Shown in pieces: positions 5,446 to 30,987 of a stretch of 32,541 bases of DNA; the first letter of the stretch is position 1; each line of letters starts with the position of its first letter. The notes beneath the pieces are model-generated. The model was not told the DNA's origin and did not search any database. It was given only the letters and a program-made list of their open reading frames with translations. Location: the IMG/VR virus record IMGVR_UViG_3300009164_000211, positions 1 to 32,541 of that record, one strand, 5' to 3'. Source of the DNA: a virus. The position numbers and the translations under genes were made by a program.

Positions 5446-6255
5446 ATGAGCCAAAAATCTAGACATAGCGGAGATGTAGAAATTGTATCGTTGGGCACAG
5501 GCGCCAACGATGGTGCTGCCAACGGCACAATCACCCTACGACCCAATGTAGTAGTAACTGGTAACCTGACAGTTCAAGGTACAACCAGCTCAATCAATAC
5601 CACAGACACCACGATCAAAGATCGAATCATCACACTCAACAGTGGTGAAACGGGTGCAGGTATTACATTAAACACATCGGGTATTGAAATTGATAGAGGA
5701 ACTAGCCCTAAGGTTGCCTTTCAATACAACGAATCAAAACAAGCATTTGAATTTGTAACTGCATCCGCCACTGGCGTTGATTTAGTTATGAATGCTAAAA
5801 CAGTTACAGGTTTAGCTGAGCCAATTGCGGCCAGCGATGCAGCCACAAAGGCCTATGTTGATGGAGTCACAGCTGGAGTTTCCACATCCGGAATAAGCGA
5901 AGATGACACCAGTGTTATAGTTCATGACTCGGGCAGTAATGGCGTAGTAGATGTCACAGTCGATGGAAGTCCATCGGCACAATTTAATAGTGCAGGTTTA
6001 AAGTTAATCGATTCCACTACAATATCTACTAATACTTCTAAGAATTTAACGTTAGCTCCTGCTACTAAAATTTTGGAAGTCAGTGCCAGTACATTGTTTA
6101 AGTATCAATCACCTGCACCAGGTAGTGATGCTGGTGGCGTTTTAATTTATTCTACTAATTCAGGAACTGGTACGAAATTAAATTATAAACATTCAGCAAG
6201 CACCGGGGAACTTGTCAGCAAGTCCCAAGCAATAATTTATGGATTAATATTTTAA
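5446..6255 (+). CDS. Short fibre-like virion protein (269 aa)
   Basis: Thr/Ser/Gly-rich beta-type protein from the family of repetitive T4-like cyanophage fibre proteins. After a short N-terminus (GDVEIVSLGTGANDG) it carries the shared GNLTVQGTTSSINTTDTTIK module (about 45-65), then IEIDRGTSPKVAFQYNESK and the AEPIAASDAATKAYVDG motif (about 125-141) common in trimeric fibres. The C-terminus is short (SKSQAIIYGLIF). First gene of a probable three-gene translationally coupled group, since its stop overlaps the next start (TAATG). Likely a minor tail or whisker fibre; the receptor-binding part, if any, is not recognisable. Confidence 0.6.
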   Translation: MSQKSRHSGDVEIVSLGTGANDGAANGTITLRPNVVVTGNLTVQGTTSSINTTDTTIKDRIITLNSGETGAGITLNTSGIEIDRGTSPKVAFQYNESKQAFEFVTASATGVDLVMNAKTVTGLAEPIAASDAATKAYVDGVTAGVSTSGISEDDTSVIVHDSGSNGVVDVTVDGSPSAQFNSAGLKLIDSTTISTNTSKNLTLAPATKILEVSASTLFKYQSPAPGSDAGGVLIYSTNSGTGTKLNYKHSASTGELVSKSQAIIYGLIF

Positions 6256-6566
6256 TGGCAATCGCACAAACAACATTGACAACTTCAATAGCCAGCATTT
6301 ATACCAGTACTGGTGTAAGTGCAGTTACCACCATGTTCTTTCTAAATAACAGCGGCGCAACAGTGACATTCTCAGTGTTGTTAAAAGCAGGAGCAGGCAC
6401 AGGCACCCTGGCAGCCAATGGAATTCTTAAAGAAATTTCTTTAATTGCCGGAGATACTTACATTTTCAATTCAGAAAAAATAATATTAGACACTGGCGAT
6501 CAGATTCAAGCAGTGGCCAGTGCCGGCAGTGCCGTTGTTACAACTATCAGCTATGTGGGCTTATAA
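6255..6566 (+). CDS. Small beta-rich putative virion protein (103 aa)
   Basis: Compact 103-residue protein with alternating hydrophobic strands (VTTMFFLNNSGATVTFSVLL, TYIFNSEKIILDTGDQIQAV), which looks like a single beta-sandwich domain. Similar small proteins occur beside tail fibre genes in many phages, where they decorate or trimerise fibres, but no specific family is claimed. It starts on the A of the upstream stop codon and ends in the same way against the next gene (TAATG at both ends), so the three genes are probably made in fixed proportion. No signal peptide or membrane segment is seen. Confidence 0.55.
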   Translation: MAIAQTTLTTSIASIYTSTGVSAVTTMFFLNNSGATVTFSVLLKAGAGTGTLAANGILKEISLIAGDTYIFNSEKIILDTGDQIQAVASAGSAVVTTISYVGL

Positions 6567-7102
6567 TGGCATATTTTGTAAAATTAAAACAATTTTTAAC
6601 CACACCAGTTAAAGTTGGATCACTCACTCAGCTCGAGTATGGGTCTCCGCAGGCATCAGGAACTGCCGCCACTACTTCGATTAACTTACCAGCGGGCACC
6701 ACAGCAGAGCGCCCAGTGGCGCCAAGTCTTGTGTTGGGCGCACTACGCTACAATACTTCTATTAGTTCTTTAGAATATTATGACGGTTCAGCCTGGCAAG
6801 CATTAAAATATGTGCCATCAACAACTCCGCCAGAAGGCAATGTTAAAGCAGTTATTACCAAGGATACTTTTACTACTACCTCAGGCGGTACAGTATATGG
6901 TCCATTGACTATAACGCCAACTAGCATTAATGGATTGCTGGTATACATGGACAACGTTATCCAAGAACCTACACAAAACTTTACGTTGTCCAACAGCTCC
7001 GGCACATTGACCGGTACACTCAACTATATTAAATTCGACTCACCTGGCACGCTCAACGGCAAGCGTTTAGTGGTCATGCATGGCTTCGACTTGTTAATAT
7101 AA
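6566..7102 (+). CDS. Fibre-associated virion protein (178 aa)
   Basis: Contains two modules that recur at the ends of larger fibre proteins here: an ERPVAPSLVLGALRYNTS segment followed by LEYYDGSAWQAL (about 50-80), and a strand-rich domain (LLVYMDNVIQEPTQNFTLSN) corresponding to the GVVQIP...Y.ISG.TLTF unit of the 465- and 2300-residue proteins. It ends KRLVVMHGFDLLI. It is thus a detached version of a fibre C-terminal region, possibly an adaptor. Coupled to the gene before it by TAATG; the next unit begins after a separate late promoter. Confidence 0.55.
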   Translation: MAYFVKLKQFLTTPVKVGSLTQLEYGSPQASGTAATTSINLPAGTTAERPVAPSLVLGALRYNTSISSLEYYDGSAWQALKYVPSTTPPEGNVKAVITKDTFTTTSGGTVYGPLTITPTSINGLLVYMDNVIQEPTQNFTLSNSSGTLTGTLNYIKFDSPGTLNGKRLVVMHGFDLLI

Positions 7103-7117
7103 TTCATCATTGCTTAC

Positions 7118-7125
7118 TATAAATA
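7118..7125 (+). promoter_or_regulatory. Late promoter, exact T4 consensus TATAAATA
   Basis: Exact match to the T4 late promoter element. Predicted start near 7131, leaving a 41-nt leader that begins with a GAAA-capped hairpin. Confidence 0.8.
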
Positions 7126-7132
7126 TAAGCTA

Positions 7133-7148
7133 CAGTCCGAAAGGACTG
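7133..7148 (+). promoter_or_regulatory. 5' leader hairpin with GAAA tetraloop
   Basis: CAGTCC and GGACTG form a perfect 6-bp stem closed by a GAAA (GNRA) loop, starting about +3 of the predicted late transcript. There is no T tract, so it is not a terminator. A role in mRNA 5'-end stability or translation is inferred. Confidence 0.6.
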
Positions 7149-7171
7149 AATATAACTTTGGTGAATAAAAT

Positions 7172-10100
7172 ATGGCTATAGGGCGAGTTAGTGGTTTAAT
7201 GCTCAAGTCGAACCTGGAACGCCAGGGCATCGACTTATCATTTGAAACTGATCTATTATATCTTGATGTAACTAATAATCGAATTGGCGTTCGAAATAAC
7301 GCCCCCACCAAAACTCTGGATATCACCGGCGATGCAGCCATCAGCGGCACAGTCACAGTCACCACAGAAATCAGGTCAGGCAATTTAAGCCTGAGCTCCA
7401 ACACACTCAGCAGTACAAATGTAAACGGTAACATTCTTGTTCGCCCCGACGGCACCGGCAAAGTAATAATCGGTACCGCAACAGATGCCGGCAATTACAT
7501 GTTGCAGGTAGAAGGTAACATTCGTGCCACAGGTAACATTGTTGCCAACGGAAACATCATACTTGGTGATTCCAACACAGACAGCATCACAGTCAATGCA
7601 GACTTTGCCACAGGTCTAACGCCAGACTTAGATGATACGTATTCTCTAGGTTCATCCACTAAAAGATGGCAAGGCGTGTTTTCCACAATCTATGGCGGCT
7701 CAAATCAGAACATTGTTCTAAGTCCTTCGGGCACAGGTAAAGTATCCATCGCAGATAATACCAAACTGTCAATTGGTGGCGGCACCAGTGGCTATGTGTT
7801 GACCACTGACGGCAATGGCGTACTGACTTGGTCCAGCGTGTCGTCCCTATCAGCCGCAGTGGTTGGCAACACCGTGACACTGGGTGCGCCAACAGACGCT
7901 AGTTTAACTAGTCCCGGTGCAACCAATGCCTGGACCACTGCAACAACAGTGACAGATGCCATTGACGACTTAAATGAAATGATGTTGAACGTTGCCAAAG
8001 GCACGTTTGTTGGCAATGTCGACTTTACTGCTACGACTCTAGCAGGGCCCAGCCCTGTGACCACTACATTTACTGCAACCTACAGCGGCACACCCACTAC
8101 CTATCTATGGAATTTTGGTGACGGCACAACTGCATCAACTGGGCCCACAGTCACTAAGACATATACACAGTCAGCTGGCGGACAATATACAGTATCAGTG
8201 ACAGTCAGTAATAGTGGCGGGTCCGGCACTGGTAGTACTGGTACTAAGTCTAGAACTAATTATATTACACTGTACACACCAAACCCCACAGCAAGTTTTA
8301 CTTTAAACAAGACAGCAGTGGACACCGGTGGTGCAGTGTTGTTGACCAACACCAGTACCAATGCTGACAGTTATGTAATTTACTGGGGCGACGGATCAAC
8401 TGACACAGTTTCATCTAACAGTGTGGCAGGCGGAGTGGGTGGCGGCACAATTAGTCACACCTATGCGGTGACAGGCACGGCTGACACTAGGTATCAGCCC
8501 TATATTATTGCCACTAGTTCAACAGCCGCAGCCGCTCCAGATGTGGTGTCGGTGACCAGCAGTACACAAAATGTCTATGTGTATAAAACACATTCACCAT
8601 CATACACTTATACCACTCTAACTGGCAACAACGATTACTCGTTGTCGCCCAATGGCTGGAATGTGACATTTACTAACACAACTGCCGCAGGAGTGGGAGC
8701 AACGTCTACTTTCAGCGGCAACAAATACCGATGGGATTGGGGTGATAGTACATACACCGATGTCAACAGCGGCAGTGGCAGTGCAGGCGACAGAAGTGTG
8801 GCCATTGCACATAAATTTAGCTTGACTGATCCAGCAGTGCAACAAACATTTACTGTTACCTTAAAGGTCTATAATGGCCATGCATCAAGTCCGTTCAGCT
8901 CGACTACGCAGACTGTGACAGTTAACCCAGATCCACAGGCGGTGTTCTCTGGAGCAGCGGTAACAGCGTCTGACAGAACTGGCGACTCTACTCGCACTGG
9001 TTATTACTTCACCGACTTAGCTGGAGTCAATCGTGCAATAATGCGATTCACCAACAGTTCATTGAACACCAACAGTTATAAATGGACTTGGGGTGACACC
9101 ACAGACAGCGGCACACTGGCCGAAGGTGTAGCAGGTACGCCTACAGGTGGCACATTGGATCACACGTACACAGCCACTGGCACATACAACGTGGCACTAT
9201 TATCAACTGGAACATACAGTGAGAGTGCGTCCGACGATACAAAAACACAAACTGGATATATTTCAATATTGGCCGCACCAGCGGCACCAGCCGGATTGAG
9301 CAGTAAAACATTGTCAATGAGCACAGCCAGTGTGGGTACAAGTCCATATTTGGCGGCCCTGGCCACAGATAACTCGGGCACTGCACCCTCAGCGGGCGTG
9401 GCCGTGACACGTTACCTCAGCGGCACAGTGGCTACCAACACTGTGGCCGATGTGTACAATGCCTACACTGGCACGTTGTCAGCGGAATTTAACGGCGTGG
9501 CCGACGGCAGCAGAGCAATGACCAGTGGCGACGATGCTGGTACGTATACAAACCTAGTCATCTCGCAAGACCGTGATGCACATGCGGCTGATCCGGCCAC
9601 TTATCCCACTAACTTCTACAAAGTGTTTAGTGCAAATCATACCAAGGCATTGGCCGGAGTTAGTGTTGGGTATAATGATATCAGGTTGACTCACTCTACC
9701 ACTGGTAATACTAATAAAGTGGCTTTTGTCAAAGATGATGTAACAGTGGTGCCAACAGTTGACTTAGCAGTTGCAACATTGGCCACTGGCACTGCTGGCA
9801 CACTGAGATATATTTCAGGTGTGCCGTACTTTAACACTGGTAGTCCCACAGTTACGTTGACTGGTGCAAGTTTATATGACTGGATCGGCCAAACATATCA
9901 AAATACAACAACACCATTCCAAATTGAGCCCAGCGGAACAAATGCTGAAAGCACAACTGGCAATGTTGTGGCCAGCCAAACAAAAACATATGCAACCTTG
10001 GATGGCGCCACAACATTCCTCAGCAGTGGTATACCCAAGGCCAACACTGGCAAGAACAGTGGGTCTCCCTACGCTATAGGAGTGCAAACCATCAACGTTG

Positions 10101-15300: not shown

Positions 15301-18300
15301 GCTGGTACACTGGGTGTGGCCAGCGACCTTGCAGTTGCTACTAACAAGTTTACTGTAGCAGCCAGTTCTGGTAACACACTAGTTGCTGGTACATTAGATG
15401 CCACAGGTAACTTTGCAGTTGCCACCAACAAGTTTACTGTAGCAGCCAGTTCAGGCGACACCGCAGTTGCTGGTAGCTTGTCTGTTACAGGCAACTTAAC
15501 AGTCAACGGAACAACTACTACAGTTAACAGCACAACGATGACTGTTGATGATCCTGTCATTACAATTGGTGGTGACACAGCTCCTGCCAGCGATGACAAC
15601 AAAGACCGCGGTGTTGAATTTAGATATCACAATGGCAGTGCAGCCAAAGTTGGTTATTTTGGTTACAACGACTTAACTGGTAGGTTCACATTTATTCCTG
15701 ATGCAACAAATACCAGCGAAGTATTCACTGGTACAAAAGGTAATATTGATATTAACGATGTTTACATCAATGGCACAGCATCCACAGGTACTGGTGGCGT
15801 AGTCAGAGCAACAAGCCCAACATTGGTAACTCCAGCATTGGGTACACCTAGCAGTGCTACATTAACCAATGCAACTGGCTTGCCAGTGGCCACTGGTATC
15901 AGCGGCCTAGGCACAGGTGTTGCTACATTCTTGGCTACTCCAAGCAGTGCTAACTTAGCCACTGCGGTGACAGACGAGACAGGTTCGGGCGCACTGGTAT
16001 TTGCCATTAGCCCAAGTTTGGTTACACCAACAATTGGTTCAGCTGGTGCTAACTTCAGCGGTTCAACCAGCGGTACAGTTACATTGGTTGCCAATGCTGT
16101 GGCAGGTACTACTACAATTACACTACCAGCTTCAACTGGTACATTGATTACCACAGGCGACACAGGTAGCATTACCAGTGCAATGATTGCCAACAGTACC
16201 ATCGTCAACGAAGACATTAGTGCTACTGCGGCCATTGCCTACGGTAAACTAGCGTTAACTGGTGCAATTCTCAACGCTGACTTAGCTGGTTCAATTGCTG
16301 ATACTAAACTATCAACAATCAGTACAGCTGGTAAAGTAAGCAACTCTGCCACAACAGCCACTAGCTCAAACACTGTAAGTACCATTGTTCTACGTGACGC
16401 CAGCGGTAACTTTGCGGCAGGTACAATCACTGCCGCATTAACTGGCAACGTAACTGGTAACGTAACTGGCCAAGTCAGTACATTGAGCAATCACACTACT
16501 GACAACTTGTCAGAAGGCGCCATCAACAAGTACTTCAGTAACACAGCAACACGAGGTGCAGTCAGTGCCGCAGTCAGTGGAACTGGCTATGGCAACTTAA
16601 CTTACGACAGTGCAACAGGTGTGTTTACCTATGCTAAGGTCACAGATACTAACATTCGTGGAGCACTGAGTGCTGGCACAGGCGTATCTTACGACAGCGC
16701 CACTGGTGCAATTAGTATTGGACAAGCAGTTGGCACAGCCAGCGCAGTAACATTCAGTAGTGTTACTGCTACATTAAATTCTGGTGTAACAGCCGGCCAA
16801 GTATTATATTCCACAGGTGCCAACGGACAAGTAACAGGTGAAGCGGCTTTTGCATACAATGCCACAACAGACACACTGTCTGCGGTGAACATTTCAGCAA
16901 CTGGTATTACTTTATCAGGTATCACAGATACACGAGTACCGTTTGCCACAACAGGTGGACTGCTTACCAGCGATGCTGATTTTGCATATAATTCTACAAC
17001 AGACACACTGTCTGCCAAGAACCTAGCAACCACAGGCACTGCCACAATTGGTATAGTGGCTGCGACTACACTTAAAGCCAGTACTTTAACCAGCGGTCGT
17101 GTAACATTTGCCACAACTGCTGGCGAACTGACAGACTCTAGCTTGTTGACATTCAACAGTGGAACCGGTGTAGCAGGTGCAACTAGCTTTGCTGCCACAG
17201 GAGACATATCAGGTGCAACACTAAAAGGCACTGGTTTAACCAGCGGTCGTGTTGCGTTTGTCACTGGCGGCGGCGCAATTACTGATGCTTCAAGTCTAAC
17301 ATTTAACAGTGGAAGTAGTACTCTAACTACCACTAACCTAAGCGTTGGTACAGAAGCTGTGTTGGCCACTGCAAAAGTCACAGCATTAACTAATGGTCGT
17401 GTGGTGATTGCAGGAGCCGCAGGCGTCCTAGCTGATACTACAGCACTGTTGTTTGATGCAGGCACAGGCGCATTAACAATCACTGGTTCGGCGCAAGTTG
17501 ATAATATCAACTTAAACGGCAACACAGTTAGTGTAACTGACACCAACGGAATATTGTACCTTGCACCTAACGGTACTGGCACAGTTGATGTCAGCAGTAA
17601 GAAAATCACTAACTTGGCTGCTCCGGCAGCAGATACCGATGCCTCTACTAAGAAATATGTTGACGACAAATTTGGCACAGCGATATCATCAATCAGTGCC
17701 AACAACACCAGTGTAGCTATTACAGACAACAACGTTGCGGCAGGTGATGTCAGTGTTACAGTTGACGGTGTACTAGCTACAAAGACTACTACTTCAGCAT
17801 TTACTTCTTACAATACAATTGTTGTTGACAACTTGACATTAGATGGTAACACAATCAGTACCACAGACGTCAACGGTGACTTGACATTAGATCCTAACGG
17901 CAGCGGCTCTGTGGTTATTGCAGCTGGTTCTAACTTTAAGATCAGTGACTTATCAACTGCCAACAGAGTATTATACACAGGTGCATCTGGACTAGTAACT
18001 TCTAAGACAGGATTTACTTTTGCTCCAAGCACTGATACATTATCAGCACCAAATTTTGTAGCAAGTACATCATTGACAATCAGTGCAATTACTGCCAACA
18101 GAGTATTATACACTGCCGCAGACGGCTTGGTTACTTCTTCATCCAACTTAACATGGGATGGCAGTACAGAGACAATCACTGGTACATTGAATGTAACTGG
18201 CCAAGGTAACATTGACAACATTAGAATTGATGGCAACACCATTAGTTCTACTGACACAGACGGCGCAATCAACGTTGCACCCAACGGTGTTGGCGCAATT

Positions 18301-21838: not shown

Positions 21839-21852
21839 GATTGAACAAATCC

Positions 21853-21860
21853 GTTAAATA
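21853..21860 (+). promoter_or_regulatory. Late promoter GTTAAATA
   Basis: TAAATA-core element directly after the terminator. Predicted start near 21866, leader 17 nt. It is flanked by the inverted repeat CCGTTA/TAACGG (21851-21871), which may be chance. Confidence 0.5.
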
Positions 21861-21882
21861 CAACATAACGGATTGTGAGAAA

Positions 21883-23460
21883 ATGGCCTTAACTAAACCT
21901 CGTGCCCACCAACTAGCTGACATTGTAGTCAAGACTTCGTGCAGGGCCGTGACCGTCGCAAACGTCAATCTCAACGCCGCCCCCAATACAGCAGACGGCG
22001 TTTCATTACTAGTAAACAATCGAGTATTGGTCGCTGGACAAACTACACAGAGTCAAAATGGTGTATATCGCATCTCCACCTTGGGCACAGGCGCCAACGG
22101 GGTATGGATCAGGGCTACCGATGCAGACGACTCTGTTGAAATTGTCACTGGACTAATACTATATGTCAGTGAAGGAACTCTGTATAAAGACACACAGTGG
22201 AAATTGACCACTGATGATCCAATCGTATTGGGTACATCAGCATTGGTGTTCGAGCGTGTGACTTCTGGCACAATAACCAGTGTCAGTGGAGGCAATGGCA
22301 TCAGCGTCACAGGCGTAGGAGATGTAACTGTTGCAATAAACTCTGTGGTGGCCACAGTCACAGGCACAGAAACTTTAACCAACAAAACTCTAACTAGCCC
22401 AGTAATTGGCAGTATTGTCAACACTGGGGTATTGACTTTGCCCACCAGCACTGATACATTGGTAGGTCGTGCCACCACTGATACCCTAACCAACAAGACT
22501 TTGACAAGTCCCGTAATCAGCGTCATTGTTAATTCGGGTACGCTGACCCTGCCAACAACTACAGATACACTAGTCGGTCGTGCTACAACTGATACCCTGA
22601 CCAACAAAACATTAACTAGTCCGACGATCAGTACAATTACAAACTCCGGTACGCTGACCTTGCCCACCAGCAGTGATACATTGATAGGCCGTGCCACCAC
22701 TGATACTTTAACCAACAAAACATTAACCAGCCCTGTTTTGTTGACATCGGCAACCACGTCCAGTGCATCATTTGATTTACTCAACACCACTGCCACCACA
22801 GTCAATGCATTTGGTGCAGCCACAGCATTAACTTTAAGCGCAGGCACTGGCACAACAACGATTAATAATAATTTAACAGTATCTGGTAATTTAACAGTCA
22901 GCGGAACTACCACAACAATCAACAGTACTACATATGTGGTAAGGGACCCTGTGGTAGTACTGGGCGGCACAGCAGCCTCGGATGATAACAAAGACCGTGG
23001 CATACAGTTTAACTGGCATGACGGAGTAGCAACCAAGACTGGCTTTTTTGGATTTGATGACAGTACTGGCTACTTGACTTTTATTCCTGATGCAACAAAC
23101 ACCAGCGAAGTATTCAGCGGAACATTGGGTACTATAGATGCCAACGGCTATCAAATAAACTCAATCGGTAATTTAAGTGCTGGATCAGCGCAGGGCACAG
23201 GCACAGTCACCGTGGACAGTTGGGCAATTGGCACATATCGTAGCGCCAAATACGAATATCAGATCACTCAGGGCTCTAGCTATCAAGTGGGAGAACTTAG
23301 GTTATATCACGATGGTACCACTGCGACGATAAATGAATATGCAACCATGGGAAGTTTAGGAACGTTTTCTGTTACTATCACTGCCGGCAATGCAGTTTTA
23401 AGTTGTGTAGTGTCGAATTCTTCGACGATAAAATTTATTAAAAGATTGATAGTAATATAA
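21883..23460 (+). CDS. Tail fibre protein with tandem repeats and type-1 C-terminus (525 aa)
   Basis: The N-terminal 120 residues form a well-known phage fibre domain: VTVANVNLNAAPNTADGVSL, VNNRVLVAGQTTQSQNGVYR, WIRATDADDSVEIVTGLILY and DTQWKLTTDDPIVLGTSALV. Four tandem TDTLTNKTLTSP units follow, then the GNLTVSGTTTTINSTT module with DDNKDRGIQFNWHDG and PDATNTSEVFSG. It ends in the type-1 domain (VDSWAIGTYRSAKYEYQIT ... YHDGTTATINEYA). The start is the ATG at 21883 (MALTKPRAHQ), not the in-frame TTG 42 bases upstream, because that TTG lies upstream of the predicted transcription start. Its stop overlaps the start of the next gene (TAATG), linking it to the enzyme cassette. Confidence 0.82.
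   Translation: MALTKPRAHQLADIVVKTSCRAVTVANVNLNAAPNTADGVSLLVNNRVLVAGQTTQSQNGVYRISTLGTGANGVWIRATDADDSVEIVTGLILYVSEGTLYKDTQWKLTTDDPIVLGTSALVFERVTSGTITSVSGGNGISVTGVGDVTVAINSVVATVTGTETLTNKTLTSPVIGSIVNTGVLTLPTSTDTLVGRATTDTLTNKTLTSPVISVIVNSGTLTLPTTTDTLVGRATTDTLTNKTLTSPTISTITNSGTLTLPTSSDTLIGRATTDTLTNKTLTSPVLLTSATTSSASFDLLNTTATTVNAFGAATALTLSAGTGTTTINNNLTVSGNLTVSGTTTTINSTTYVVRDPVVVLGGTAASDDNKDRGIQFNWHDGVATKTGFFGFDDSTGYLTFIPDATNTSEVFSGTLGTIDANGYQINSIGNLSAGSAQGTGTVTVDSWAIGTYRSAKYEYQITQGSSYQVGELRLYHDGTTATINEYATMGSLGTFSVTITAGNAVLSCVVSNSSTIKFIKRLIVI
22369..22740 (+). repeat. Tandem 111-bp in-frame repeat
   Basis: The LTNKTLTSP unit begins at 22369, 22480, 22591 and 22702, exactly 111 bp (37 codons) apart; the fourth copy is truncated after LTSPVLL. 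Full units also share a TLTLPT.(T/S)DTL(V/I)GRATT tail. Confidence 0.92.
22885..23130 (+). repeat. Shared fibre module (also 15490-15736 and 26851-27101)
   Basis: About 82 codons running from GNLTV(N/S)GTTTT through DDNKDRG, FIPDATNTSEVF to a final G. The other copies are in the 2300- and 825-residue genes. A 32-base block at 23086-23117 is identical to 27058-27089, so the similarity is at DNA level and not only in protein. Confidence 0.85.
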
Positions 23461-24302
23461 TGTTAGGAAAAACTTACAAAGACTATGCAGGTGAAAGCAT
23501 AGCAACCAGCATCATTTTTAGAAATGGCACAAGAGAACAAGAATCTGTTTTTTACAAAATGGATTACGAGCCCAACTCTTGCCCCAACGCCATAGTCTGC
23601 GGCAATGGCAGGACCAGAGAAAAGTTCTTTAAGATGCTGGAACTGGTGGATGCCGCCGGTGGTTATCTAAGAAAAAATAAACCTGAGGTCTACGCCTGTA
23701 ATGCGGCCTACACTGAAACTACCAAGCCACACAATGTAGTAATTGGAAATCCATTGATGGCAGACGAGTTCTATAAAACCAGCTCAAATTATCCAAATGC
23801 TGTATATTTGCCCTGGGCGCAGTGGGTAAAATATAAAGACAGCACCCCCGCCCCTAGACTAATACCAAATCACTACACAGGCGGCAGCACCGGTAAGTCT
23901 GCATTGTACTTGGCCGCTTGGCATGGACACACTACCATTTATATGTTGGGGTTCGATTTACAGCCAGAAGAAGGTCGCAATAATAATATCTATGCAGGAA
24001 AACATCCACTATATAGTGGTATAGATGATCACGTCAGTGATGCAGTATGGATTGCAGATTGTTTGCAAGTATTCCGTGCTTATCCTGATGTAAAATTTGT
24101 TAGAATTGTCCCCACCGTTTGGGATGAGGATGAGAAAAAATCAATAGTTATAAATTTCAATTGCCCAGACGAATGGGCAGATTGTGATAACTTTAGGCAA
24201 CTAGACGTAGAAACATTTAAACAGGAGATAGATTTTGGACCAGTCAAAGATCACACGAGGAAACAGTTACGATACCGATCAGCTGGCCCGAGAGTTTCTT
24301 GA
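23460..24302 (+). CDS. GT42/DUF115-like Rossmann protein, putative glycan enzyme (280 aa)
   Basis: Pattern of a sialyltransferase-like (GT42) or DUF115/MptE-like nucleotide-binding fold: NAIVCGNGRTREKF at about 43-56 (the GNG loop), VYACNAAYTE at 77-86, and TGGSTGKSALYLAAWHG followed by TIYMLGFDL at about 140-167, then NNNIYAGKHPLY. Related proteins with GNG, CNA and YLxGFDL motifs occur in T4-like marine phages. Members of GT42 transfer sialic-type sugars from CMP-sugars; DUF115/MptE-like members include pyrophosphokinases, so the exact reaction is open. It overlaps the fibre gene before it (TAATG) and the methyltransferase after it (68 bp), so the three are probably co-made. GSTGKS is not a true Walker A, as the glycine spacing is wrong. 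Function in fibre or cell-surface modification is inference. Confidence 0.5.
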   Translation: MLGKTYKDYAGESIATSIIFRNGTREQESVFYKMDYEPNSCPNAIVCGNGRTREKFFKMLELVDAAGGYLRKNKPEVYACNAAYTETTKPHNVVIGNPLMADEFYKTSSNYPNAVYLPWAQWVKYKDSTPAPRLIPNHYTGGSTGKSALYLAAWHGHTTIYMLGFDLQPEEGRNNNIYAGKHPLYSGIDDHVSDAVWIADCLQVFRAYPDVKFVRIVPTVWDEDEKKSIVINFNCPDEWADCDNFRQLDVETFKQEIDFGPVKDHTRKQLRYRSAGPRVS

Positions 24303-25008
24303 TTTATTAGATGAATCAATGTGGGAAGACCAGCTCTTGGATGTGCTGGATGTGGGCTGTGGGGATGGTATACAAGCCGAGTGGTGGGCATCACGTAGGC
24401 CACCGGACGATGAAGATCGTTATGATATAAAACCTTCGGTGGAATGTCACGGCGTTGATTTGTTTCCTCCGTCTTCGGACCTGGTCAACAAGTTTTATTA
24501 CAAGCAAGAAGACTACCACAATTTATCTTTTAAAGATTCACAATTTGACATTGTATGGAGTCATTTTAGTCTAGAATACAGTGCTACTCCATTCAAAGCC
24601 TTGGCAGAATGGCGCAGAGTATCCAAGCCCGACGGGCACTTATACCTAACTGTTCCAGGAAGTTTTAAGAAAAAGTTTGGCAGAATACACACCGGGATCA
24701 AACCAGGACAGCAGAGTTGGTTTACTGTGCCCATACTGATGTACATGCTGGCCTACACCGGATGGTTGCCCAAGCATAGTTTCTTTGAGCAAGACTTTAA
24801 AACCGGGGTCATACGTGGATTAATTGCGGCCAATCCCGAACAATCCACGGCCGTAGACCCAGTCACTACAAATTTATATGAAATGGCTGAAAAAGGTCTG
24901 TTCGACCAGTGGTGTAATGCAATGATCAATGACACTGGCACATTTGACGAGTCCAGACTAGTGACAACTTGGGTCACAGGAAAACAACTGGATTACCGAT
25001 CACTTTAA
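24235..25008 (+). CDS. Class I SAM-dependent methyltransferase (257 aa)
   Basis: Rossmann-type methyltransferase: motif I VLDVGCGDG at residues 37-45, an acidic motif II (HGVDLF, Asp75), a motif IV-like FDIVWSHFSLEY at 104-115 and KPDGHLYLTVPG at 131-142. The C-terminal 100 residues probably hold the substrate site and are not recognisable. I chose the TTG start because AGGAG lies 7 nt upstream, while the first ATG (24319) has no ribosome site and would begin only 8 residues before motif I. The TTG start overlaps the preceding gene by 68 bp. The closest style is the methyltransferase family often found in sugar or lipopolysaccharide clusters; no DNA-methylase motif such as DPPY is present. 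Its substrate may be a glycan, a small molecule or fibre protein. Confidence 0.75.
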   Translation: MDQSKITRGNSYDTDQLAREFLDLLDESMWEDQLLDVLDVGCGDGIQAEWWASRRPPDDEDRYDIKPSVECHGVDLFPPSSDLVNKFYYKQEDYHNLSFKDSQFDIVWSHFSLEYSATPFKALAEWRRVSKPDGHLYLTVPGSFKKKFGRIHTGIKPGQQSWFTVPILMYMLAYTGWLPKHSFFEQDFKTGVIRGLIAANPEQSTAVDPVTTNLYEMAEKGLFDQWCNAMINDTGTFDESRLVTTWVTGKQLDYRSL

Positions 25009-25047: not shown

Positions 25048-27525
25048 ATGAGTTATACACTAAACAAAACCGACGGATCTGTACTGCTGACGTTAGCAGA
25101 TACCACAGCCAATACAACATATGGTGTGTCATTTTTTGGCGCCAATTATGAAGCATGGGGAGAAAGATTCAATGAAAACTTCATTGCTCTCCTAGAGAAT
25201 TTTGCAAACAACACTGCACCCAGTACCACTTCAGTCAAAGGACAGATATGGTATGACACCAGCATCGACGGATTAAAAGCCTACGACGGCTCCGCATACA
25301 TTCAATTGGCCGGTTTTGTAAAAAGTTCAACCAGTCCCACAGGTCAGCTGGGCAGACTTTGGCTAGACAGCGACGACGACAGAATGTACATCTACAACGG
25401 CAGCGCATTTAAATCCATTACCCCAGGAACAATTGCATTGACCGGTGATGTCACCGGCAGTGGCACAATGAATGCCACCACTGGAAATTATAGCATTGCA
25501 GTGACATCGGTTGCGGCAGCCACCAATAGTTTTACTACAGTAGCAGTGTCCGGTCAAAGCAACGTCGTTGCAGATTCAGGTAGTGATACTCTTACCTTGG
25601 TGGCTGGCACAGGTACTACACTTACCACCGATGCCACCACAGATACTATTACATTTGCAGTAGACACATCGGCGGTGGTGACAAATTCAAATACGTTGAC
25701 TATCTCGGGCACTAAAACATTTTCTGGTACATTAAAGGCCACCGGTAGTATTGAATTAGGCGGTGCAACCAAGGCAATCTATGCAGATTTATCGCCCAGC
25801 GCCAATGCTGGTATTAGATACAGTAGCCCGCAGTGGGAATTATCACACGATGGCAGCACATGGGCAAGGATTGCCACGGGCTCGGTGCCTCCAGTCAATG
25901 CACAATATATTACACTGGCCAACGACAGTACATTATCAAATGAGCGAGTATTAACTGCTGGCACCGGAATTAGTTTAACCGACGCAGGGGCAGGGTCCAC
26001 AGTTACATTGGCCAACACAGGTGTCACAGCTTTGACAACCAGTAGTGGATTAAGTACAAACACCAGTGCAACAGGTTCAGTTTCTATTACCAACACCGGC
26101 GTCACTAGCTTTAACGGCAGTGCTGGTGCAATTACAAACTATGCGTTTGGTAATATTATAGTGTCAGGCCAATCAGATATTGTGGCAGATTCGGGCAGTG
26201 ATACTCTTACATTAGTTGCTGGCAGCAATATTACATTGACCACCAACGCCACCACTGATACAGTTACCATTGCCGCAGGCAGCGCAATAACATATGGCAT
26301 TAGCTCAGAAATAAATGGGGCAGGTGCCGCATTGCGTTTAACGGGAAGTAACTCCACCACAGACAATGTGGTGTTTGCCAGCGGTTCTGGTATTACCATT
26401 ACTAGAACTGATGCCGATACAATTACCATTGCCACCAGCGGTAGTAGTGGTATCACTTCTGCCTACACCGCAATAAGCGATGGTTCAAACAATGCCGCAG
26501 CCGTCGGCACTGATACAATTAAATTTAGAGGCGGCACAGGTGTTACTGCAACAGTTGGCAGTAACGATGCTACCTGGGGCGACAATGTACAAATTAGCGT
26601 ACAAGACGGCAGTACAACTCAAAAAGGTTTAATTCAATTATCCGATGAAGGTTCAAGCACCAGTACATCGTTGGCCGCCACGGCAAACTTGGCCAATACA
26701 AAGCTATCCAAGAGTGGCGGCACAGTAACCGGCGCAGTGACAATCAGCGACGCCACAGCCAGCACTACCGCCACCACTGGTGCATTAATTGTCACCGGCG
26801 GAGTAGGCGTGGGCGGCAATGCCTATGTGGGCGGCAACCTAGTGTTAACTGGTAACCTTACAGTCAACGGCACAACCACTACAATAAATGCAACCACTAC
26901 CACAGTAGACGATCCGGTGTTTACCATCGGTGGGGACACTGCTCCTGTCAGTGATGACAACAAGGATCGTGGCATAGAATTTAGATATCACAACGGTACA
27001 GCAGCCAAAGTTGGATTCTTTGGTTATGATGACAGCACTGGTAGATTCTCTTTTATACCTGATGCAACAAACACCAGCGAAGTATTCAGTGGCACAGTCG
27101 GCGATGCAGAGTTTGGCACAGTTTATGCCAAGGCAACATCTGCACAATACGCTGACTTGGCAGAACGCTACGAAGCAGATGCATTCTATGAGCCGGGCAC
27201 GGTATTAGTAGTCGGCGGAGAAAAAGAAGTTACAATATGTAGTTCAGTTGGTGACATTAAACTGGCCGGTGTGGTGTCTACCAAGCCTGCTTATCTTATG
27301 AACAATGGCGCAGGCAGCGACGTTACGCACCCAGCTATTGCATTAAAAGGTAGAGTACCAGTAAAAGTGTTTGGTGCTGTACACAAAGGTGATCTGTTGA
27401 CTACCAGTGCCTATGCAGGTCATGCAGAACTAGCATCTGCAGAAACTTCACCAATGGCCATCATTGGTGTAGCACTGGGCACTAATGTAAGTGGTGCCGG
27501 TGTAATCGAAATAATGATCAAGTAA
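25048..27525 (+). CDS. Fibre protein with type-2 C-terminal domain (825 aa)
   Basis: The head MSYTLNKTDGSVLLTLADTT, then YGVSFFGANYEAWGERFNEN and FIALLENFANNTAPST ... GQIWYDTS, is a conserved N-terminal domain of T4-like cyanophage and pelagiphage structural proteins. Two SGQS(N/D)(V/I)VADSGSDTLTLV units (near 170 and 373), VQDGSTTQKGLIQLSDEGSS and TTGALIVTGGVGVGGNAYV follow. Then comes the GNLTVNGTTTTINATTTTVD module with DDNKDRGIEFRYHNG, and from about residue 700 the type-2 C-terminus (AQYADLAERYEADAFYEPGT ... LAGVVSTKPAYLMNN ... GRVPVKVFGAVHKGDL). It equals the 824-residue fibre in length and in the position of that domain although their N-terminal parts differ. Its 3' end overlaps the convergent Nudix gene by 8 bp with no terminator between. 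Confidence 0.82.
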   Translation: MSYTLNKTDGSVLLTLADTTANTTYGVSFFGANYEAWGERFNENFIALLENFANNTAPSTTSVKGQIWYDTSIDGLKAYDGSAYIQLAGFVKSSTSPTGQLGRLWLDSDDDRMYIYNGSAFKSITPGTIALTGDVTGSGTMNATTGNYSIAVTSVAAATNSFTTVAVSGQSNVVADSGSDTLTLVAGTGTTLTTDATTDTITFAVDTSAVVTNSNTLTISGTKTFSGTLKATGSIELGGATKAIYADLSPSANAGIRYSSPQWELSHDGSTWARIATGSVPPVNAQYITLANDSTLSNERVLTAGTGISLTDAGAGSTVTLANTGVTALTTSSGLSTNTSATGSVSITNTGVTSFNGSAGAITNYAFGNIIVSGQSDIVADSGSDTLTLVAGSNITLTTNATTDTVTIAAGSAITYGISSEINGAGAALRLTGSNSTTDNVVFASGSGITITRTDADTITIATSGSSGITSAYTAISDGSNNAAAVGTDTIKFRGGTGVTATVGSNDATWGDNVQISVQDGSTTQKGLIQLSDEGSSTSTSLAATANLANTKLSKSGGTVTGAVTISDATASTTATTGALIVTGGVGVGGNAYVGGNLVLTGNLTVNGTTTTINATTTTVDDPVFTIGGDTAPVSDDNKDRGIEFRYHNGTAAKVGFFGYDDSTGRFSFIPDATNTSEVFSGTVGDAEFGTVYAKATSAQYADLAERYEADAFYEPGTVLVVGGEKEVTICSSVGDIKLAGVVSTKPAYLMNNGAGSDVTHPAIALKGRVPVKVFGAVHKGDLLTTSAYAGHAELASAETSPMAIIGVALGTNVSGAGVIEIMIK

Positions 27526-27949
27526 GACTATCAAGTATCTTAGATAAGCGATCAACTGTATCTTCTTCTTTGAGACTAGAATAAACCCCAGGGTGCATGG
27601 GCCTTGGAAATTTCTCTATCGGTACCCAACAATATCCGCAATGTTCTTCATTTAGTGTGGGAATGAATTCTTGCTCTACGATGTAGACATAGGTGTAAAA
27701 TGCAAAATTACCGTCTTCGCTGACATAATGGTCCAGCGGTATGGGATTCAGTTTAAATTTTATACCAATTTCTTCCAGTGCTTCACGTTCTAAAGTTTGT
27801 ATAGGAGTCTCGTCGAGTTCCTTCTTACCACCTACAATGCCCCAGTGATATCCCCAACGCTGGTTGCCTTGCCGCAGTAGAAACAGAAATCGTCGAGTAG
27901 ATTTTGAATAAACAAATGCACCATGGCTGATTATGTTACTATTCGCCAT
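27518..27949 (-). CDS. Nudix hydrolase (143 aa)
   Basis: Complete Nudix box G-x5-E-x7-REuxEExGu at residues 41-63 (G41, E47, R55-E56, E59-E60, G62), preceded by a WGYHWGIVGGKKE strand. The family hydrolyses nucleoside diphosphates linked to another group: oxidised nucleotides, ADP-ribose, NADH, Ap4A, nucleotide sugars or capped RNA. The motif does not tell which. The start is MANSNIISHG, 7 nt after GAGGA, inside the end of the gp15 gene (19-bp overlap); an upstream ATG at 28003 lies deeper in gp15 and would add 18 basic residues unlike the family. Last gene of the leftward neck operon, so probably expressed late, which is unusual for a nucleotide-pool enzyme. T4 also encodes a Nudix protein (NudE), at a different locus. 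Confidence 0.9.
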   Translation of the reverse strand: MANSNIISHGAFVYSKSTRRFLFLLRQGNQRWGYHWGIVGGKKELDETPIQTLEREALEEIGIKFKLNPIPLDHYVSEDGNFAFYTYVYIVEQEFIPTLNEEHCGYCWVPIEKFPRPMHPGVYSSLKEEDTVDRLSKILDSLT

Positions 27950-29472
27950 TGGCCATCCTCGTACAGCCCTTCCCAGCTTCGCACCCAGTCTACGCCGTTC
28001 CATTTAAATTGTTGTCCGGTGCTGGCATTGGTTACATAGTTTAGTGCCTCAGTACCGGCCGCTCTAAAACTTACTACCCATCGTGTGCCGTTGTACTGAA
28101 TGATGTCATATTTGTAGGCCACTAGGTCTTGACTGCCTGAGCCCTTCCACGCATCCGCACCATCGGTGTTCATCAAGTCGCCGATATCTTCTAACAGCAT
28201 GTATCGTTGTCCGGTGGCCCTTACTGGTAGTCCGTGTCCGGGACCCTTTTTCAAAGGGTTTACAAAATTATTGACAGCCGCCAAGGTGTTGCTAGGTATG
28301 GTATCTGCATCAACAGTATATATTAATAAACTAGTGTCAGTGGCATCTCTTGCAACAGTTAATACCACTTCATCGGTAGTTAATCCTTGTTTTAAAAATA
28401 TTCTCGATAGTCCGTCGTGAATGGAGCCAAAGCCGGCATTTAACGACCCCCAACTAATTGGATCACCGGGCCGAGCAACAACTGTGCCTTCTATGCCTTG
28501 ATCATAAGCACCTAGTTCCTGAGACAGTAATTGTATCTTACCACCTATTACTAGAATATCATAATTTTGAGATAGTGTACCACTGCGTTTTTTGTAAACT
28601 ATTTTCTCTGTCAACTCATTGCTAAGTTTGTTATCTTCTGTTCTTGACGGAGTATTTTCCACTACCAACGGAGACATCAACGAAGTTTCGCTGGCAATGT
28701 CAGCAAGAGTAGAGCCGCCATTAGAATCTGTTAAGTTAAAGTCTGCGTCAGTAAATCCTGCTTCGATTAAATCAGTCCTTAGTGAGCCACTGGCATCAAA
28801 TAATTGTGTAATCACATTGGTAATAACACCCAGTTTTTTAACCTTAGCTGGAGTGCTTAACCATATGGGCATTTCGAATGTCAACGTGGCAACGTCTATA
28901 GTATCCTCTGGGCCTACTGGCACACTTCTACTGCTCCACATAACTTCTTCTAAGTTGATGTAACTCAATGAGCCCCAGTCTAGGTAATTGTCAGTGCTTT
29001 GTATCTCAAAGCTGGGATTAAACAGTACTAGAATTTGTTCTAGTAACTGCATCTTTTGGTCAGCGTTGGAACAATAGATGTCAGCTTTAACAGTGAGGTC
29101 GTAGGGCGCAGGCATCAAACGTTCAACTGTAAAACGGTCTCCAGGTTGATCGGTGTAATTGCCGTCAACATCTTTTTTACGCATTTGCACACTGACATTT
29201 TTAACAAAGTTAGGCTCTTGCATGCGTTCACGACTATACTTTAATGCAGTGATATAGCAAGCAATCTGCGGCACAGTGATTAATGTGTTACTGCTATTGT
29301 TGCGAAGAATGGCAGCCGCTTGTCTGCTGGGGTCTCCGTAGGTAGCTGGCACAACACGAAATACTTCAGCGCCTGCGTCGTCTCGGCCAAACTTAACTGG
29401 GAAGCCGCTCATGACACGAATAAACTGAGCAAGGAATCTGCGAATTTGACCGCTGTAAAAATATTGACTCAT
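27931..29472 (-). CDS. 15: Tail sheath stabiliser/completion protein gp15-like (513 aa)
   Basis: T4 gp15 caps the finished tail tube and sheath and joins the tail to the head. The N-terminal third aligns by eye with it: MSQYFYSGQIRRFLAQFIRV against T4 MFGYFYNSSFRRY, then a FRVVPATYGDPSR segment like T4 IRVPITYA, YDLTVKADIYCSNADQKMQL and LEQILVLFNPSFEIQ, and ATLTFEMPIWLS. The C-terminal 270 residues have no T4 equivalent (T4 gp15 is 272 long). They end with YNGTRWVVSFRA and GQQFKWNGVDWVRSWEG, small W-rich repeats of the type seen in cyanophage neck proteins. Separated from gp14 by only 3 nt and overlapping the Nudix gene. Assignment is good for the N-terminus; the role of the extension is unknown. 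Confidence 0.8.
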   Translation of the reverse strand: MSQYFYSGQIRRFLAQFIRVMSGFPVKFGRDDAGAEVFRVVPATYGDPSRQAAAILRNNSSNTLITVPQIACYITALKYSRERMQEPNFVKNVSVQMRKKDVDGNYTDQPGDRFTVERLMPAPYDLTVKADIYCSNADQKMQLLEQILVLFNPSFEIQSTDNYLDWGSLSYINLEEVMWSSRSVPVGPEDTIDVATLTFEMPIWLSTPAKVKKLGVITNVITQLFDASGSLRTDLIEAGFTDADFNLTDSNGGSTLADIASETSLMSPLVVENTPSRTEDNKLSNELTEKIVYKKRSGTLSQNYDILVIGGKIQLLSQELGAYDQGIEGTVVARPGDPISWGSLNAGFGSIHDGLSRIFLKQGLTTDEVVLTVARDATDTSLLIYTVDADTIPSNTLAAVNNFVNPLKKGPGHGLPVRATGQRYMLLEDIGDLMNTDGADAWKGSGSQDLVAYKYDIIQYNGTRWVVSFRAAGTEALNYVTNASTGQQFKWNGVDWVRSWEGLYEDGQWRIVT

Positions 29473-29475
29473 AGT

Positions 29476-30987
29476 TTAATCTGCCTGTGGTTTCAAAAGA
29501 TCATTTAAGTTCTGTCGTTGTGTAACAGTTTCGCCACCGTCTGCAACGTGTGTGTTTGTGTTATTAACAAACGAACCTTTTAATGTTTGTCTTTCTGCAT
29601 TATTAGTTAGCGTCACTCGTTGTTCGGTTTCATAATGTGACCACACAGAGCCAGTCCATCTAAACAATCTTGCTGGTAAAAAGTCTGTGCGTTTAAAGAA
29701 ATTTCCCTTTGTTGGATTTGCCGGAAAACTAGTACCGAATCCCATGGGCGCCCCGTTGGGAGCAATGGCATCGCTGACCAAGTACCCTGCGGTATATCCT
29801 TGACCACGAGGTGTGCCATAAAGGGTAGTTTCCAATGCAGTGCCAGTGCCTGACCCAGCGCCAGTTGCTTCAAATGTAATGTCGCCGATTATGCCCTTTA
29901 TAATGGTGCCAGCCGCTACTAACTGACTGGTGCTCACAGTGTAAGTTCCAATGCCACCAGTGCCAGTGCCCAGTGCAGTGACATATGTTCCTGCAACAAT
30001 TTGATCTCCGGTTGTTAGTCCCGGGGTCAAGTATGTACCAACTCCGATGACTCCAGATGCCACAGAACTAACAGTTAACCTTGTGCCAGCAACTCCACTG
30101 CCATTATCTATTTTTCCAATCACGGATGCAGTGGCCTCTGCGCCTATTGATACGAAATTGGTAGTACCCAACGACACAATTTTATAAGTGTGACCTTTGA
30201 CAAACGAACCAGCAACTGTTGGAGTACCGTCATTGTTGTCAATGACATTTGGTTGACCGGTGGAGGTAGTTGGATTAATCCAGAACATGCTGGTGTCATA
30301 GCCGCTTTTAGGCACGTCAACTTCGGCCTGTGCAACAACTGCATCGTTGACTTCTTTAACTTTATTGTAATTGCTGAGATGGTTAAACAAATCATCCGGA
30401 TTAGACCCATTGCCAAGTATGCCTTTAAATTCTTGACTATCGACCAGCGGACCAACTTTGACTCTCCACACATGCGGAAACCAAGTGGGACTATAACCTT
30501 CACTAGATCTACTGGCATCTTGAATTACATAAAATCTTTTCAATGCCTTGGCCACATCATTCAATGCAAATGGATCTTTGAGATTGGGAAATTCAATGAC
30601 ATCACCACTCATCAAAGGGCGTCCAATACGTTCAACCATGTCGTTGATATGGAAGTTGACAAATATAGTGTCGTTGGCTAAAAATAATCCAAATTGGCTT
30701 AGATCGAAATCAACATCATTTTGATTGTATATTCCACGAAGCTCATATAAATCTTTGCTGTATTTTCTATCTCGATTTTCCAACAACAATAAATCTTGGA
30801 TTCTAGATACACTGGCATCACCAGTTGGTTGAGCTGGACCTGTGCTGTCGGCTGGGTCAGTTTCTGCTCCCAAATATTTGTGGACAATGAGTCCGACACC
30901 GCCAACATAGAAGAATTCCCGGCTTTGGCGGTCGTGCCAGTAGTAATCTTTGCTATATTCTGGGCGCCAAAGGCTTAGTCGGGGCAT
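29476..30987 (-). CDS. 14: Neck protein gp14-like with inserted modules (503 aa)
   Basis: T4 gp14 forms part of the head-tail neck. Matching features are FGLFLANDTIFVNFHINDMV (about 99-118) and MSGDVIEFPNLKDPFALND (126-144), corresponding to the T4 stretch around KEPKEGDLIYFP, then FYVIQDASRS and PHVWRVKVGPLVDSQEF. The C-terminus GYLVSDAIAPNGAPMGFGTS followed by LPARLFRWTGSVW and KGSFVNNTNTH is like cyanophage gp14. At 503 residues it is twice T4 gp14 (256); most of the extra sits at residues 258-386, where two phage beta modules are nested. First gene of the leftward operon, with a late promoter and GGAG ribosome site upstream. Confidence 0.82.
   Translation of the reverse strand: MPRLSLWRPEYSKDYYWHDRQSREFFYVGGVGLIVHKYLGAETDPADSTGPAQPTGDASVSRIQDLLLLENRDRKYSKDLYELRGIYNQNDVDFDLSQFGLFLANDTIFVNFHINDMVERIGRPLMSGDVIEFPNLKDPFALNDVAKALKRFYVIQDASRSSEGYSPTWFPHVWRVKVGPLVDSQEFKGILGNGSNPDDLFNHLSNYNKVKEVNDAVVAQAEVDVPKSGYDTSMFWINPTTSTGQPNVIDNNDGTPTVAGSFVKGHTYKIVSLGTTNFVSIGAEATASVIGKIDNGSGVAGTRLTVSSVASGVIGVGTYLTPGLTTGDQIVAGTYVTALGTGTGGIGTYTVSTSQLVAAGTIIKGIIGDITFEATGAGSGTGTALETTLYGTPRGQGYTAGYLVSDAIAPNGAPMGFGTSFPANPTKGNFFKRTDFLPARLFRWTGSVWSHYETEQRVTLTNNAERQTLKGSFVNNTNTHVADGGETVTQRQNLNDLLKPQAD
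29830..30216 (-). repeat. Nested pair of phage beta modules inside gp14
   Basis: The outer module has the pattern GSFVKGHTYKIVSLGTTNFV ... TFEATGAGSGTGTA (residues 261-280 and 371-384), widespread in phage virion proteins, where its two halves are normally only a few residues apart. Here they are separated by a second common module, TRLTVSSVASGVIGVGTYL ... TALGTGTGGIGTYTVSTSQL (residues about 296-362, positions 29902-30102). Confidence 0.7.

Follow-up and report, generated by a model that had tools for sequence, protein, structure and literature searches.

By fold, the closest described relatives of the protein examined here are Cst-I and Cst-II of Campylobacter, enzymes of glycosyltransferase family 42 (GT42) in which a histidine acts as the general base (His202 in Cst-I and His188 in Cst-II; PMC4202792). 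The Maf domain (PF01973) known as Maf_flag10 resembles Cst-II, and Maf proteins O-glycosylate the serine and threonine residues of flagellin and accept 3-deoxy-D-manno-octulosonic acid linked to cytidine monophosphate (CMP-KDO) (PMC11339370). In isolated mycobacteriophages, glycans are reported on virion proteins, namely the subunits of capsid and tail tube (Freeman et al. 2023, as cited in PMC12619734). The DNA analysed here was a viral stretch of 32,541 nucleotides, positions 1 to 32,541 of IMG/VR record IMGVR_UViG_3300009164_000211, the whole of which is referred to as the window. Between two fibre genes it carries a gene for a GT42-like protein followed by an overlapping gene for a class I S-adenosylmethionine (SAM)-dependent methyltransferase, and the pair is read here, tentatively, as a fibre-modification cassette combining Maf-like fibre glycosylation with methylation. 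Unlike the glycoproteins of mycobacteriophages as cited, the proposed acceptors are fibres of uncultured jumbo phages.

The first protein was modelled with AlphaFold2 from an 88-sequence alignment, giving a predicted local distance difference test score (pLDDT) of 87.7 and a predicted template modelling score (pTM) of 0.87; this model was used in place of one built from three sequences, which had a pLDDT of 37. A Foldseek search of the PDB with the model returned Cst-I and three Cst-II entries with a probability of 1.00 (E 1.2e-4 to 3.2e-3, template modelling score of about 0.44), followed by lower-probability epimerases and others, while the matches among viral models were uncharacterised phage proteins and two annotated as MptE-like. 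The overall fold of Cst-I and Cst-II is shared and the GNG, CN and glycine-hydrophobic-aspartate motifs fall in register, as they do in a relative in L170 (GNGPS, RCN and SG...GID), which matches Cst-II and Cst-I directly in a search of PDB sequences. The differences are an identity of 16–18%, a valine or isoleucine at the position of the catalytic histidine and an N-terminal beta extension of about 40 residues; a further 21 residues extend the C-terminus. On the modelled fold and the motif register the first protein is GT42-like. A set of ankyrin-type matches in the PDB sequence search, on the stretch ALYLAAWHGH, was rejected as chance and uninformative.

Family profiles gave weaker matches in the same direction, consistent with the GT42/DUF115-like label of the original prediction. 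The window protein scored 16.8 bits against PF01973, far under the gathering cut-off of 34.6, and had no listed match to PF06002 (CST-I) at E up to 0.1, a profile matched by four of 37 family members (best E 0.00086). Among the PHROGs it matched phrog_30607 (8e-9), which is recorded without a function, and phrog_4603, an alpha-2,3-sialyltransferase family (5e-4); these were matched by 24 and 8 of the 37 members respectively, the latter match being weak and partial. The protein resembles the Maf and MptE-like proteins of PF01973 in structural superfamily, in having a filament protein as its proposed acceptor and in a donor that may be CMP-linked, and differs from Maf in the sub-threshold PF01973 score, in lacking a match to other Maf domains and in that the acceptor is only a proposed one.

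Relatives were gathered by scans seeded with the tail-sheath completion protein of the window and then with the family itself, yielding 107 distinct complete members. The family-seeded scan found at least 562 relatives, with hundreds of members in IMG/VR and almost none in cultured phages, where the first protein had no match at E 1e-5 and only weaker matches, to HTVC008M and Mosig, beyond that threshold. Three relatives sit in contigs of bacterial metagenome-assembled genomes (MAGs) that are phage-like by gene order, so that no cellular origin was found. MAG contigs L170, L171 and L172, labelled Rickettsiales, Verrucomicrobia and Pelagibacter, carry a sugar and dioxygenase cluster together with a GT42-like gene and, from their gene order, are probably phage contigs within bins. 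A literature search of partial coverage returned no paper on this family. In 94 diverse long members the donor-site residues are near invariant, the two asparagines N49 and N81, equivalent to N9 and N31 of Cst-II, being kept in 92–93 of the 94.

Both reading frames lie far beyond chance open reading frames (ORFs). The locus is kept in a near-identical contig, L001, and in a contig of 65–72% identity, L002, in the order fibre, GT42-like, methyltransferase, fibre and then the convergent NUDIX and sheath-completion genes. Between the window and L002 the nonsynonymous divergence (dN) is 0.26 for the GT42-like gene and 0.21 for the methyltransferase gene, and since this is low against a synonymous divergence (dS) that is about 2.6 or saturated, both ORFs are working genes under purifying selection. 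The layout described in the original prediction held throughout: two genes flanked by ORFs that match structural or fibre PHROGs, a TAATG junction at which the first ORF begins on the last base of the fibre stop codon, a 68-bp overlap of the two genes, and GNG, CNA (residues 80–82) and YMLGFDL motifs in the first protein. The TTG start of the methyltransferase and the exact overlap are retained in L002. Most family members end in D-L/V/I-stop at window residues 258–259, exactly where the methyltransferase starts, and the overlap therefore represents the 21-residue C-terminal extension of the GT42-like protein. Linkage to fibre genes in relatives, the lack of which would have spoken against the original prediction, was found for the first gene in more than 100 relatives; the two genes as a pair co-occurred only in the window, L001 and L002.

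Gene neighbourhoods were scored in the 103 distinct members whose contigs extend 300 bases or more upstream, almost all relatives being metagenomic fragments. An ORF rich in glycine, serine and threonine (G/S/T, 26% or more), a crude compositional marker of fibres, precedes the family gene in 90 of these, and in 91 the upstream ORF ends within 25 nt or overlaps it; the background frequency of such ORFs is 27.5% of all ORFs of at least 150 residues in the same loci. On its other side the family gene closes the fibre operon and faces the convergent NUDIX and sheath-completion genes in 101 of the 107 distinct members. The exceptions are the window, L001 and L002, in which the methyltransferase and a second fibre intervene, and three core paralogues. 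The gene also lies within 4 kb in 41 of the 67 loci with room that were fetched by the sheath-completion protein only, without reference to the family, and so the fibre linkage was not made by the query. Tracking of one particular fibre C-terminal domain was considered and rejected, at least two domain types being found ahead of the GT42-like gene.

The content of this slot varies among relatives. In L011, L017, L200–L206 and L208 it holds fusions of MptE-like, Methyltransf_23 and FkbM domains (PF01973 E 7e-20 in L011 and 6e-19 in L204) together with a 2-oxoglutarate (2OG)-oxygenase-like gene, and in L204, L205, L206 and L208 a GT42-like family member comes after the fusion and oxygenase genes. 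A tryptophan halogenase gene (PF04820, E 1e-104 in L204) occupies the fibre-proximal slot of L204 and L208, at 6054–7670 in each, while L022 and L078 carry FkbM, radical-SAM/SPASM and DUF6445 genes. As judged from gene content the slot is a variable modification island, in which glycosyltransferase-like and methyltransferase functions recur together. The GT42-like family and the L011-type MptE-like fusion did not match significantly when their profiles were compared, and the two were kept apart. The methyltransferase of the window is a class I enzyme by its domain match, as had been predicted (PF08241, 60.4 bits against a curated cut-off of 21.2), with DVGCGDG at residues 39–45. Its closest solved structures are diverse methyltransferases, and among the relatives compared it was not found outside the clade of the window, L001 and L002.

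Eighteen members, mostly of about 221 residues, form one clade of single origin (support 100/98), with L069 inside it and L166 outside. This short clade has lost the donor-site asparagine, the CN pair, G145, Tyr178 and Tyr185 almost throughout, and retains Y9, E12, Y78, Y116, P136, H157, G164 and N244. A second family copy was found in eight of the nine short-clade contigs with at least 9 kb upstream (seven of eight if the look-alikes G002 and G003 are counted once), whereas the long-type records with at least 30 kb upstream have a single copy in all seven cases. The second copies have no N-terminal extension and lie 9–15 kb from the short-form gene; those inspected have an intact GNG...GCN at their start and share a conserved site, flanked on one side by an MGRPLKIKK-type gene and on the other by a G/S/T-rich one, which places a motif-intact paralogue between two virion- or fibre-like genes. 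All members of the clade belong to one lineage, so the association of the short form with a second copy is a correlation and not a set of independent replicates. The function may have been divided in this clade between an active protein and a pseudoenzyme partner on the fibre side. Beside the motif-intact paralogue a tetratricopeptide repeat (TPR) gene (L028 18680–19879, with a weak GT9 domain; first ORFs of L188–L197) diverges from the MGRPLKIKK-type gene, and recalls TPR-containing protein glycosyltransferases.

Under the favoured reading the GT42-like protein would be made late, from the 3' end of the fibre transcript, and its GNG/CN/GFD donor pocket would bind an activated sugar, probably CMP-linked. 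The sugar would be moved in the cytoplasm onto the Ser/Thr-rich fibres, as Maf does on flagellin, and the overlapping methyltransferase, a clade-specific addition, would then methylate the sugar or the fibre. Such decoration would probably serve to alter the fibre surface, and with it adsorption specificity, stability or shielding. In L170 the family member has a cytidylyltransferase gene (PF02348) about 5.4 kb away, and another was found in one jumbo record. A broader version, in which uncultured jumbo phages carry a modular island for the post-translational modification of their tail fibres, appears more doubtful; in it, Maf-like glycosylation by the GT42-like family would use a base other than the GT42 histidine, would alternate or team up with methyltransferase, oxygenase, halogenase and radical-SAM modules, and would be divided in one clade into a catalytically dead subunit from the fibre operon and a separate motif-intact copy.

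Several observations weigh against fibre glycosylation. The Cst-II catalytic loop, which we take to read SHYIGH, was aligned by eye to NIYAGK of the window, placing His188 at residue 177, a register that is uncertain given so short an alignment; this catalytic-base position is valine or isoleucine in 88 of the 94 long members, isoleucine in the window, and no conserved histidine was found near column 177 in the 94. Because of this residue the first protein was not filed as a GT42 sialyltransferase. G/S/T-rich ORFs are frequent in the regions concerned, and in HTVC008M and L170–L172 the relatives have sugar and dioxygenase genes as neighbours and are not close to fibres. The short clade still occupies the fibre slot with its donor motifs lost, so that some members must have a function that does not depend on this catalysis. 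PF02348 is encoded in just one of 18 records tested, and a phage-made CMP-sugar donor is therefore not general; elsewhere, the host would have to supply it. Searches with the methyltransferase for clues to its substrate returned no informative relative.

The enzymes may instead modify a host surface glycan, lipopolysaccharide or capsule, so as to prevent superinfection or aid release at a late stage of infection, with the adjacency to fibres arising from receptor specificity, an alternative also raised in the original prediction. GT42 enzymes act on lipo-oligosaccharide (PMC4202792), and this explanation fits the arrangement in HTVC008M and L170–L172, whose clusters include epimerase, cytidylyltransferase and 2OG oxygenase genes. 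A host-surface enzyme would however be oddly placed as the last, stop/start-coupled gene of a virion operon, the same slot in relatives holds halogenase and radical-SAM genes, and the degenerate clade is hard to square with host-glycan chemistry; we consider this explanation unlikely. It is equally improbable that the family serves in fibre assembly, or as a minor protein of the virion, through an exapted glycosyltransferase fold whose catalysis is absent or vestigial and an N-terminal extension that grips the fibre. Such a role would account for the family-wide lack of the GT42 histidine and for a short clade that keeps Y9, E12, H157 and N244 without GNG, CN, G145, Y178 or Y185. A scaffold alone would not need the near-invariant donor residues of 94 divergent long members, the window included, and a second copy with intact motifs is mostly retained where the degenerate form occurs (seven of eight independent contigs, against none of seven long-type records).

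If the site between the fibre modules were a recombination hot spot that gathers neutral or selfish cargo, this would explain why slot content differs so widely and why L010, fairly close by its sheath-completion protein, lacks the gene; given the purifying selection and the deep conservation of motifs and position, such an explanation is very unlikely. Hypermodification of DNA or nucleotides, or tRNA or cofactor metabolism, suggested by the pterin diphosphokinase MptE in PF01973 and by the nearby NUDIX hydrolase, was set aside as the least probable on fold and context, as the PF01973 match is far under its cut-off, no fold but GT42 was matched with confidence and the linkage is to fibre rather than replication genes.

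From its sheath-completion protein, 33–34% identical to the counterparts in Pseudomonas jumbo phages Paride and PA5oct (34% to Paride), and the order of neck, sheath-completion and NUDIX genes that it has in common with Paride, the window is assigned as a fragment of an uncultured freshwater jumbo myovirus, a distant relative of these phages. The features of the locus are collected in the table. The true start of the upstream fibre is probably the ATG at 21883 (MALTKPRAHQ...), as in the L002 homologue. The NUDIX ORF overlaps the sheath-completion gene by at most 73 bp, a pair kept across the lineage including Paride. The adjoining neck protein (29476–30987, minus strand) has 503 residues compared with 371 in L002, the gap being a G/T-rich insert of about 130 residues (KGHTYKIVSLGTTNFVSIGA...) like fibre or decoration modules. 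A module of about 90 residues, TTTxNSTTxxVxDPVxxxGGxxAxDDNKDRGIxFxxHDG..., is repeated in the fibre genes of the window at 15433–15771, 22828–23160 and 26836–27102, in copies about 59–70% identical, which suggests domain shuffling among fibres.

Table. Positions of the fibre-slot features in the window, with the basis of each assignment.
Feature	Position	Strand	Basis
Upstream fibre gene	21841..23460	+	Matches to structural/tail fibre PHROGs
TAATG stop/start coupling, fibre to GT42-like gene	23458..23462	+	Sequence; same -1 arrangement in L001, L002
GT42-like glycosyltransferase-fold gene, 280 aa	23460..24302	+	AlphaFold2 model, Foldseek, 112-sequence family alignment
GNG donor-site motif, residues 48-50	23601..23609	+	Equivalent to Cst-II G8-N9-G10, register via relative
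CN motif, residues 80-81	23697..23702	+	Equivalent to Cst-II C30-N31
YMLGFDL motif, residues 161-167	23940..23960	+	Equivalent to Cst-II YLSGIDF
Residues 177-185, near-invariant Tyr178 and Tyr185	23988..24014	+	Column counts in alignment
AGGAG ribosome-binding site of methyltransferase, within GT42-like gene	24223..24227	+	Sequence
Class I SAM-dependent methyltransferase, 257 aa, TTG start	24235..25008	+	PF08241 E 2.8e-16
68-bp overlap of both reading frames	24235..24302	+	Sequence; equal length in L002
Downstream fibre gene with Phage_fiber_2 repeat	25048..27525	+	PF03406 and PHROG matches
NUDIX hydrolase, convergent, right border of fibre slot	27518..28003	-	PF00293 E 2.4e-14
Tail-sheath stabiliser/completion protein, lineage marker here	27931..29472	-	phrog_11196 and phrog_227

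Phage fibres determine host range, and to our knowledge their chemical modification by phage enzymes is hardly documented. If the favoured reading is true, a family with hundreds of environmental members, tied to fibre genes and almost missing from cultured phages, would show how such phages vary or shield their adhesins beyond sequence change, and the degenerate clade, in which the donor site is lost and the position kept, would be a natural experiment on pseudoenzymes.

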